In this document: positions 14,262-27,547 of the stretch, piece by piece
Numbering within the stretch: the stretch's first letter is position 1
How the letters are laid out: the number at the start of each line of letters is the position of its first letter
DNA from: a virus
Length of the DNA: 32,444 nucleotides
Virus record (IMG/VR): IMGVR_UViG_3300009164_000213
Location: 1 to 32,444 of that record
Reading direction: 5' to 3' (one strand)
Notes under the pieces: generated by a model
Told to the model about the DNA's origin: nothing
Database searches by the model: none
The model's input: the letters and a program-made list of their open reading frames with translations, nothing else
Program-made: the position numbers and the translations under genes

Positions 14262-14822
14262 ATGAGAGCCAGGGAATTTACTACCGAAGCACATCATTAT
14301 CGAATGATTACACAACCAATGGGTACTTGGACTGTGCATATGGATAGCCATGCATTTGTTACTGTTGTAGATCGCGGCATTAAACTTGCTGATGTAGTTA
14401 ATATACTCACCTTTGCTTGCTTACGTGTACCCGAACTCAAGACCATACCACTAGGCAAAGGTGCGTATTTTCAAGACACAAACACCTTGATATCTTTGTA
14501 TCTCAAACGTTCAGATCATTATCCTAATGAAATTACCCTGGAGACTGTGTTATCGCCAAACATGCGCCCTACACCCCCGCTGTTTCGTAGAGCAGTGCCG
14601 TCGCATAACATAAAAGAGCCAAAACATGTTACTTCAGGACAACAAGCAATGCGACAAAAAATACAGTCTGTGGGCCGTGATGCAGTGAGCCAAGACGTAG
14701 AAAGCATGATGCCAGCATTTAATGCAAAAACTAACGCTTTAGGAATTCCACAGAATAGGGAAGAGCGTAGAGCACTTGACAAGTATTTGCAAAAAAACAA
14801 AAAAAATAAAAGGAGTCCGTAA
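14262..14822 (+). CDS. Hypothetical protein with capsid-targeting-like N-terminus
   Basis: 186 residues. The first ten residues, 'MRAREFTTEA', resemble the T4 capsid-targeting propeptide of internal proteins ('MKTYQEFIAE' then Ala): basic residues, an acid-Phe pair, and Glu followed by Ala at the possible cut. The next 115 residues are a compact alpha/beta domain of unknown family ('WTVHMDSHAFVTVVDRGIKL', 'TNTLISLYLKRSD'). The rest is basic and ends in a Lys-rich tail. There is no Shine-Dalgarno sequence; a late-like AATAAATA lies upstream. If the pattern is real, it is a packaged internal head protein. Position alone (inside the lysis region) would not have suggested that. Confidence 0.55.
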   Translation: MRAREFTTEAHHYRMITQPMGTWTVHMDSHAFVTVVDRGIKLADVVNILTFACLRVPELKTIPLGKGAYFQDTNTLISLYLKRSDHYPNEITLETVLSPNMRPTPPLFRRAVPSHNIKEPKHVTSGQQAMRQKIQSVGRDAVSQDVESMMPAFNAKTNALGIPQNREERRALDKYLQKNKKNKRSP

Positions 14823-24838: not shown

Positions 24839-27547
24839 ATGCATGTACTAGATCTATTTAATGACAAAGACCGCAACTTCTTAAACGGTGGTGCTATGGC
24901 CGAAGGCGGTATGCCGGATGTTAATTTGGAATACGAGGATTACCTAAAACTGCCGCCCATGGCGTTTCAAAGTCGTTACAAGATGTCCAAGGAAGCATGG
25001 GCAGAGAAATACAAAAACCTATTGCCTAAACCGGCGCCCAAGGATCCCACTGCAGGCATGCCCGATGCACCTTTTGAAGCAGTAGATCAGCTTGATGAAT
25101 TGACTCCTACAAAACTAGCCAACTATATTACAAAAGCTAATACTGATGCTAGAAATAGACTTAAACAAGATCCAAATAATCAATTTAAAAAAGCTGAAAA
25201 AAGAATGGCCGGTATGAGTAAGATTCGTGCCACAATGGAACCTGCTACTGCTAAAGCACCGGGTGTAGAGGAAGGCTCTAACCCAGAAAAAGTTGAAGTT
25301 CGTTTCAGTGCTAAAGAATATGCCGCTATGACACCTGCTCAAAAAGCCGCAAAGCAACAAGAATGGCAACAATTAAAACAACAAGCAAAAATGCGTATGC
25401 AAAACTTTACTTTGATTGACACTGATAAAGAGCAAGGTGTAGCAGAAGGTGAAGATAGAGTTGATTCACTTGTTACTAGGGGATTAGAAAAAATGCAGGG
25501 TCCAAGATGGTTGGATGCTGTGGCCGCAATAAAAGCTCAAGTTGGAGAAAGAGATTACAGAGATCGTAAACAGTTTTATGATTTCTTTGTTCAACAACTG
25601 GTGGATATGTATGGTAAAAAAGATGTGGCGGAAGGCAAACCCAATTTGAAATGTGTTTGCAAAACTATGGGACCAGAGCAATGTCCAGTGCATGCTCCAA
25701 TGGACGAAGGTTGGTTAAAAAATACTGTGGCAGGTGCCGCAATAGCAGGTGCCGCACTTGGCGCTCAAGCCAGAGTTACTCCCGGCCAAGATGATCCTAA
25801 TATCAATCGATTAACAGGCAAGCCCAATGTAACACAAGTGGCACCAGTAGACCAAAAGCCAGCAGTACAAGCACCAGCTGGATTTAGTAAAGAATATCTA
25901 CAAAGCGTTGTAGACGGCAAACATCCTAGACCATTGGTCAGCATCGAAAAGGCACAGCAATTATTAAAACAAATGCAAGAAGGTGTGGCGGAAGGTGTCA
26001 GGGAGTTAGGCTATGACGCACAATCTCTTATTATGAAACTACGCCGAGATGTAGAAGAAAAAAGATTACAACCTACTCCACAGGCAGTATTAGCAGCCGC
26101 AAGAGAGCTAGCAGGTGATATGGATTTTGCTCCTCAACTGTTAGTAAAGCAAGTGTTAGGCCAAAGCGTGGCGGAAGCTGACATGAATCGTAGAGGTTTC
26201 TTGAAGGCTGCCGGCGCGGCGGCCGTGGCAGGTGTCGGTGTTAGCAGCCAAGCACAACCAGATCAGCAACAAGATTTAGGAAACGGCTTTGTTACAGCAA
26301 AGGCAACCATTGATGGAGTAACATACAGAGCTATACAGGATACCATAAGTAAATCAGGTTACATGCTGAATCACCGTGGTGACGGCACTCCTATCGTCAA
26401 CCGTCCGGGGGAATTTCTTGTAGTAAGAAACGGTAAAATAGAAGCCAGAACGGAACTTGCTCCAAATGTCATAAGAGCCTTACAAAAAGCAGGCATCCTG
26501 TCAATGGACGACAGCCAAGTGCCCACACAAACTTCGCCAGCAGTGACTCATTCTTCTCGTGGCGGAACTAATCAACCAGCAGTGACATATTCGTCTCGTG
26601 GCGGAACTAATCAACCAGCAGTGACATATTCGTCTAGTAATAGAAAACCCAGAAACGAAGACACCGCGTCTAGAATGAAAATGGACGACTATATTAAAGC
26701 GGCGGAGGAATTGCAAGATAGACTTAGTCAAGCAATCAAGCAAGGCGACCGAGACTTGATTAAAAAATTATCTAAAGAGCGTGATGAACTAGATGCCCGA
26801 GTCAGACAACATGGTATGGTTCCGGAAGCATCTAAACTCAACAAACCAGGCAAAGAAACAGTTGGCGAAGCAACTGTTCAAAGTTTGGTAGCCAGTTATA
26901 AAAATTTACTCAAACGTGTACTCGGTATTGCATTTAGTAAAAAACAAAATGCCAGTGATCCAATGGCGTTTCAAAGAATGATGTCTAAGATTACTAGTCC
27001 GGTGGATACTTCAAAATATCAAGCAATATGGCAAGAATACAAAAATGATAAACAGTATTATGTTACTACACCGCACCCTGTTAAAGACATAAAGAATAAA
27101 GAAATAATGTATTTGTGGGCCAACAGTTTGGCTCAGTTTGTTTCAAACAAGTACCCTGATGCTCCAATTGAAGCATTAACTCGATTGGTGGAGGCACTGG
27201 CAGAGTTTGGCGCCAAAGAAGCAATAAACCAAAAACAAAAAGGTCTAGGTGAAGCTACCCAACAAAAGCCACGTGTTCGCAAGTACACCAAGATGCGCCC
27301 AGATGGCAGCAAAGCTGTGCGTTACGAAGTACTAGACCACATGGGTCGTCGTATCACAGGTCAAGGTCCAGAAGGATTTGATGATCCTAAACTTGCCAAA
27401 GACTTTTATTATAAAAACTACGATCGCTTGGCATCACTGGACGAAATTGTAGACCGCAGTGTGTCAGACACACCAACCAAGCCAGTCATGAAAGAAGCCG
27501 GCGGCCGGTACTGGTGCAGTACAGAAAAGCGTTGGAAAGATAGTTAA
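24839..27547 (+). CDS. Candidate internal-head polyprotein with multiple gp21-like cleavage sites
   Basis: 902 residues. The N-terminus 'MHVLDLFND' fits the shared pattern. Eleven sites of the form [V/L/M]-x-E-[G/A] occur, with the Glu at 22, 145, 203, 265, 290, 385, 446, 663, 677, 805 and 886; five of them are Val-Ala-Glu or Met-Ala-Glu. T4 prohead protease gp21 cuts after [L/I]-x-E before Ala/Gly. Predicted pieces run from 14 to 217 residues. Piece 266-290 has C-x-C-x7-C-x2-H. Pieces 291-385 and 447-663 would start with hydrophobic segments, the second with a twin-arginine motif. Residues 567-599 hold a 13-residue tandem repeat. No Shine-Dalgarno sequence is seen. No known enzyme domain is recognised. 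Confidence 0.65.
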   Translation: MHVLDLFNDKDRNFLNGGAMAEGGMPDVNLEYEDYLKLPPMAFQSRYKMSKEAWAEKYKNLLPKPAPKDPTAGMPDAPFEAVDQLDELTPTKLANYITKANTDARNRLKQDPNNQFKKAEKRMAGMSKIRATMEPATAKAPGVEEGSNPEKVEVRFSAKEYAAMTPAQKAAKQQEWQQLKQQAKMRMQNFTLIDTDKEQGVAEGEDRVDSLVTRGLEKMQGPRWLDAVAAIKAQVGERDYRDRKQFYDFFVQQLVDMYGKKDVAEGKPNLKCVCKTMGPEQCPVHAPMDEGWLKNTVAGAAIAGAALGAQARVTPGQDDPNINRLTGKPNVTQVAPVDQKPAVQAPAGFSKEYLQSVVDGKHPRPLVSIEKAQQLLKQMQEGVAEGVRELGYDAQSLIMKLRRDVEEKRLQPTPQAVLAAARELAGDMDFAPQLLVKQVLGQSVAEADMNRRGFLKAAGAAAVAGVGVSSQAQPDQQQDLGNGFVTAKATIDGVTYRAIQDTISKSGYMLNHRGDGTPIVNRPGEFLVVRNGKIEARTELAPNVIRALQKAGILSMDDSQVPTQTSPAVTHSSRGGTNQPAVTYSSRGGTNQPAVTYSSSNRKPRNEDTASRMKMDDYIKAAEELQDRLSQAIKQGDRDLIKKLSKERDELDARVRQHGMVPEASKLNKPGKETVGEATVQSLVASYKNLLKRVLGIAFSKKQNASDPMAFQRMMSKITSPVDTSKYQAIWQEYKNDKQYYVTTPHPVKDIKNKEIMYLWANSLAQFVSNKYPDAPIEALTRLVEALAEFGAKEAINQKQKGLGEATQQKPRVRKYTKMRPDGSKAVRYEVLDHMGRRITGQGPEGFDDPKLAKDFYYKNYDRLASLDEIVDRSVSDTPTKPVMKEAGGRYWCSTEKRWKDS
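26537..26635 (+). repeat. 39-base in-frame tandem repeat
   Basis: Two full copies (26537-26575 and 26576-26614) and a 21-base partial copy (26615-26635) encode the 13-residue unit PAVTYSSRGGTNQ. Copies 2 and 3 are identical over their shared length; copy 1 differs at a few bases. This points to recent duplication in a flexible linker. Confidence 0.9.

Follow-up and report, generated by a model that had tools for sequence, protein, structure and literature searches.

Predicted prohead-protease sites may unmask internal Tat-type export signals in polyprotein cargo of T4-like phages

Overview

A 902-aa polyprotein of a large freshwater virus of bacteria carries a twin-arginine (Tat) type signal some 450 residues into the chain, directly behind a predicted prohead-protease site, and the same segment with the same type of cut is found in 31 distinct phage proteins (IMG/VR scans); thus, its occurrence in the window (the whole stretch of DNA analysed, a 32,444-base virus fragment) is not due to chance. 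These proteins are likely to be packaged polyprotein cargo whose export signals are uncovered by maturation cleavage and serve after injection. Inferred steps are packaging, cleavage at this particular bond, the fragment's retention in the head, its injection and its transport by Tat; no mass-spectrometry or N-terminal data are at hand, and the host and its Tat system are unidentified.

The polyprotein and its buried Tat-type signal

The window includes T4-like tail-fibre families (PHROGs search) and open reading frames (ORFs) recognised by eye, which we take to be ClpB-like, PhoH-like, clamp-loader-like and DNA-polymerase genes. The polyprotein ORF (24839..27547, + strand) has about a dozen xE↓G/A/S sites (↓, predicted cut), the clearest of which are E203, E265, E290, E385, E446, E663, E677 and E805. 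Pfam and PHROGs searches of the 902-aa protein detected no domain other than a sub-threshold TAT_signal. Its N-terminus (MHVLDLFNDKD) is of an LF type, comparable to MNFTELFE of L109 and MFISDLFE of L012, as opposed to the MRAxEFIxE start of other Tat cargo; a capsid-targeting function has not been shown for the LF type. CTS-like starts with a Glu site are also noted in other ORFs of the window, at 14262 (MRAREFTTE↓A), 21402 (MFVNELFE↓S) and 27556 (MRSYELAE↓G).

The predicted cut of interest, VAE446↓A447 (26168..26179, + strand; DNA GTGGCGGAAGCT; spanning sequence GQSVAEADMNRR), meets the (L/I/V)xE rule for T4-type prohead proteases directly before A447. Cleavage after E446 would expose the segment ADMN-RRGFLK-AAGAAAVAGVGVSS-QA (residues 447-472; 26177..26254, + strand), which reads in context as VAE446↓ADMNRRGFLKAAGAAAVAGVGVSSQA↓Q, with A447 encoded from nucleotide 26177, Met449 by the codon at 26183 and the arginine pair at residues 451-452. 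The twin Arg resides in the (S/T/N/D)RRxFLK context (NRRGFLK) and is followed by a core of 18 uncharged residues with a hydrophobic X+4 (simple rule set) and a signal-peptidase-like end (S-Q-A↓Q) at A472. The match of Pfam TAT_signal (PF10518) covers residues 448-465 and scores 19.8 bits (E 7e-4), slightly short of the curated cut-off of 22.7. The segment is internal in the precursor (RR from residue 451) and becomes N-terminal only if the chain is cut after E446; the next site of the same type downstream, MVPE663↓A, would delimit a fragment of 217 residues. In the AlphaFold model the signal stretch is predicted to be disordered (pLDDT < 50) and adjoins a well-folded passenger. An earlier note, made without database searches, had proposed this cut-exposed Tat signal; its coordinates, residue numbers and fragment length all check out, and the folded, buried helix that it named as a refutation is not what is predicted.

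The passenger is a domain of about 80 aa (QQQDLGNGF...KAGIL; 26255..26524, + strand), predicted to form a small beta domain with one helix. The model, based on an alignment of 8 sequences, reaches a pLDDT of ~85 over fragment residues 33-104, and fold searches with it returned no convincing solved relative (best Z 3.9). The rest of the predicted fragment to E663 (26525..26827, + strand) contains a tandem SSRGGTNQPAVTY repeat together with an MxMDDYxKxAxE module of helical appearance, which the window fragment shares with L026. At the DNA level, the repeat within this Tat-headed fragment (26540-26640) has a unit of ~39 bases.

Recurrence of the signal behind predicted cuts

IMG/VR was searched with the DNA pattern VAE[A/G]xxxRRxFLK, the looser [MIL][ND]RRGFLK, two more patterns and the passenger. 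The first pattern recovered three further phages and a contig identical (100%) to the window over residues 339-902. Two of 33 Tat-like matches (L009 and L039) were removed as antisense or unrelated, and L061 was rejected as a chance match.

The coupling of signal to site is seen in 30 of the 31 proteins, in which the RR follows [LIV]xE at a distance of exactly 2 or 4 residues, and several of the searches did not require xE. In the EIDRRGFLK class, for which P3 was not fixed in the search, P3 is Leu or Ile in 22/22 (vs. 23% at other Glu residues of the same ORFs), while in the xDxNRRGFLK class, for which nothing upstream was fixed, VxE or IxE lies directly before the motif in all seven distinct sequences. 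The binomial values calculated for this coupling (7e-15 and 2e-11) overstate the evidence because the sequences are related to one another, and are to be taken as strong support, not as literal probabilities. The invariance of RRGFLK is partly by construction, since it formed part of most search patterns. The EID class also departs at P1', which would be Ile if the nearer site is used, as opposed to the usual A/G/S; many of its members have an alternative VAE↓G site seven residues before the RR.

The PF10518 cut-off is reached or exceeded by 15 of the 31 relatives, and simple Tat rules (hydrophobic X+4 and at least 13 uncharged residues) are passed by 29, no dedicated Tat predictor having been used. 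AxA-type sites are present in 26/31 against ~20 expected by shuffling, which is only a mild enrichment; L047, L052, L057 and L062 are without a clear one.

The Pfam Tat profile, when run over 14 related phage records, gave 18 matches, all in open frames of 306 to 1,453 aa, and 17 of these are internal, the exception being the N-terminal signal of L113. This profile search and a CTS survey together added five cases beyond the 31. New from the profile are L109 (VNE↓ADISRRGFLK), L119 (LDE↓DLSRRGFLR), L122 (LAE↓AISRRDLLK) and L123 (LEE↓NITRRGFLG). The survey covered 91 distinct ORFs with a start like that of T4 internal proteins (M[R/K]AxEFIxE) and found one Tat case, L135, with MRAVEFIAE↓IDRRGFLGALGAG (i.e., MRAVEFIAE↓IDRRGFLG) followed by GH19. 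In L032 (MRAREFIAE↓IDRRGFLK), the CTS likewise leads directly into the Tat segment. Judged from sequence alone, L032 and L135 would be the simplest form of the arrangement (CTS, Tat, cargo), in which removal of the CTS is sufficient to expose the signal.

The pattern [L/F]xEIDRRGFLK[G/A] had no match in 257 Gb of cellular genomes; EIDRRGFLK alone had 15, eight of them in an open reading frame, and where these eight have a Tat-like core it mostly sits at a possible N-terminus or close to one. When the polyprotein, its passenger and a number of Tat modules were compared by tblastn with 50,697 phage records, no cultured phage showed the Tat arrangement, with the caveat that the low-complexity filter may hide an Ala-rich signal, and E. 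coli genomes gave no match. The shared ancestry of cut site and Tat signal from locus to locus tells against the proposed reading, and the two may move together as a single cassette.

Passengers behind the signals

The passengers recognised at curated cut-offs behind post-cut Tat segments are the TonB C-terminus of L026 and L030 (TonB_2, 5e-19 and 2e-18), LysM (3.5e-10) with an SLT transglycosylase (4e-9) in L040, an M48 peptidase in L122 (5e-8) and GH19 in L123 (1e-14) and L135 (2e-11). All of these recognisable passengers have envelope functions. In L040, the Tat segment lies a few residues from a Met (MKITE↓IDRR) and, therefore, cleavage may not be needed there. Elsewhere in the same kind of cargo, cytidylyltransferase-like, GP88 and DUF6321 domains occur, and the flanks of the TonB module matched only repeat modules of cyanophage polyproteins. 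The model of a second passenger (L048 family) is mostly helical, with a mean pLDDT of 60.7.

The window passenger (QQDLGNGF...) is found with a Tat segment in the window and four other distinct loci (L037, L054, L078 and L080). L083 has it after a Sec-like signal instead, and L075 and L082 have it within cargo proteins but without any preceding signal. The signal is thus an optional module for this passenger, not an obligatory one, as L075 and L082 do without it; the exchange of Tat for Sec on one passenger fits an export function, which predicts such exchange. According to the earlier note, homologues without both the RR pair and the cut would have refuted exposure of the signal by cleavage; the Tat-bearing homologues keep both RR and xE, and RR pair and upstream cut are conserved across many unrelated passengers, so that this part of its proposal is supported.

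L113 (1474-2391), in the same phage record as L012, encodes a protein with LysM and GH19 domains whose Tat signal is N-terminal in the ordinary way and which is possibly a Tat-exported endolysin. At least one of these phages, therefore, seems to use Tat openly.

Sec-like segments and cut-site DNA

A second export-like segment, Sec-like in kind, follows a predicted cut in the window at MDE290↓GWLKNTVAGAAIAGAALGAQA↓RVTPG (25709..25771, + strand), and L043 has the same segment and passenger (LDE↓GWKSALGAAALAGTMAMGAGGASA↓RVMPG). Members of this class have (V/L/M)xE↓G(W/L)(K/L) followed by a hydrophobic core and often an AxA end (xE↓GWK...AxA), and such segments occur in about ten other loci (L012, L043, L057, L059, L064, L150, L171, L192, L218 and L228).

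The codons of VAE↓G sites, in the window polyprotein (E203, E265, E385, E446 and others) and in related loci, are kept at the DNA level, with GTGGCGGAA in 38 of 47 distinct sites, mostly within CAAGGTGTGGCGGAAGGC; the codon background of these ORFs is 9% GCG for Ala and 23% GTG for Val. The cut-site DNA resembles, and could conceivably act as, a recombination seam for the shuffling of cargo modules.

The protease

Peptidase_S77 of the T4 type (PF03420) is present in 4 of 20 related records, which amounts to four of the five records longer than 250 kb; the search took in these records and not the 32-kb window. Aligned gp23 N-termini of the same records point to LAE↓S, LTE↓T, LME↓N and LKE↓N as likely sites of maturation. 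These sites are predicted, and agree with the LxE rule and a relaxed P1'.

Proposed mechanism

The 902-aa protein is proposed to be a cargo of the T4-like phage capsid, similar in kind to internal head proteins, with its modules joined by prohead-protease sites. In the prohead, a gp21-type protease would cut after E446, such that the next module starts with ADMN-RRGFLK and its Tat signal is at a true N-terminus. In the phage-producing cell the signal would be silent, hidden as it is within the uncut precursor. Once injected into the new host, the folded module would be moved by that host's Tat system into the periplasm or inner membrane to act on the envelope; related modules with Sec-like signals would be routed via Sec. 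That export to the periplasm of the new host follows injection had been put forward in the earlier note and remains an inference. What the passenger of the window might do in the periplasm, whether envelope take-over or exclusion of competing phages, is a guess.

What is shown here is the sequence with its recurrence and its link to the cut site, the fact that the recognisable passengers are of envelope type, and the occurrence of the protease in related phages. A bolder reading, which we favour by a narrow margin, is a two-step delivery code in which the cuts made by the maturation protease both free the effectors of packaged polyproteins and give them N-terminal Tat or Sec signals, which sort the injected effectors between cytoplasm and periplasm, all of it silent in the producing cell. 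Cargo packaging, the CTS and Glu-specific maturation are already known, and injected phage proteins are usually seen as acting in the cytoplasm or the entry channel. The open-access literature searched contained no case of this cleavage being used to generate export signals, and no paper in it has the terms 'Tat signal', 'phage' and 'prohead protease' together. If correct, the mechanism would let phages install folded enzymes and TonB/Tol-like domains in the periplasm as soon as infection begins, and would account for a signal that stays hidden until virion maturation. It also provides a sequence rule for finding periplasm-directed cargo: (L/I/V)xE, then 0-7 residues, then RRxFLK, or GWK-hydrophobic-AxA.

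Alternative explanations

The Tat segment could instead serve the producing cell through an internal translation start at Met449 (26183), a possibility raised in the earlier note, in which case the product would be an ordinary N-terminal Tat protein with no need of cleavage. A purine-rich stretch (GGCGGAAG) precedes this ATG, itself three residues into the fragment; Met occupies the position in five of the 31 relatives, and a Tat protein of the ordinary N-terminal type does exist in related phages (L113). However, 24 of the 31 have Ile codons (ATA/ATT/ATC) and two have Leu, the purine-rich stretch is the cut-site cassette that occurs at dozens of sites without a start codon, and the CTS-Tat proteins (L032 and L135) already begin a few residues earlier. 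As most relatives carry Ile codons at this position, the internal start fails as an explanation; it is not supported and is considered very unlikely.

Also considered unlikely, if less firmly so, is that the segment freed by the cut is not a Tat signal but a membrane-active peptide, such as a pilot or pore segment, that aids entry of DNA or protein. Segments rich in Ala and Gly and hydrophobic in character follow several cuts, including non-Tat ones, no clear AxA site is seen in the four segments noted above, and the membrane is where ejection proteins of other phages act. The RRxFLK consensus with its weakly hydrophobic core, and the TonB C-terminus, M48, LysM/SLT and GH19 passengers, nevertheless fit cargo export better. 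Similarly improbable is that the signal is a fossil without present role, a relic of recombination at the repeated cut-site DNA that brought Tat-exported genes of host or phage origin into cargo polyproteins. The conservation of that DNA suggests cassette shuffling, and two passenger homologues have no signal, both of which favour this view. Against it, the signals persist at fixed spacing behind the cuts with many synonymous differences, the same passenger has either a Tat or a Sec-like signal, and the phage-type motif is absent from the cellular genomes searched. Unmasking of export signals by maturation cleavage remains the preferred reading.

Comparison with known systems

Polyvalent proteins of phages and plasmids (PMC5512222) are similarly multi-domain and predicted to be carried into the host for conflicts, but differ in domain content from the cargo described here; signal peptide, periplasm and TonB are not mentioned in that paper. 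The ejection proteins of the giant phages SPN3US and phiKZ are large packaged cargo cut after Glu (S/AxE there), sometimes several times, by a related prohead protease (PMC10052503; PMC5694885), much as is proposed for the window type. These cleavages remove propeptides, unlike those of the window type, and the term 'signal peptide' does not occur in PMC10052503.

The closest parallels in T4 are IPI-III and Alt, gp21-cut CTS cargo with which the window type shares short N-terminal CTS-like peptides, cuts (predicted for the window type) after Glu at (L/I/V)xE and presumed injection (PMC9026906; PMC5694885). In T4, CTS peptides some ten residues long target cargo to the head and are removed by proteolysis, and the cargo is ejected into the host (PMC9026906), and related prohead proteases cut after Glu, sometimes repeatedly in one protein (PMC5694885, PMC10052503). 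T4 cargo is described as losing an N-terminal propeptide and being ejected into the host cytoplasm; by contrast, the window-type precursor has many sites, and some of its predicted products start with an export signal. With bacterial Tat substrates the phage segments share RRxFLK, an uncharged hydrophobic core and often AxA; the phage signal differs in that it is internal in the primary product and a phage protease would be needed to make it N-terminal.
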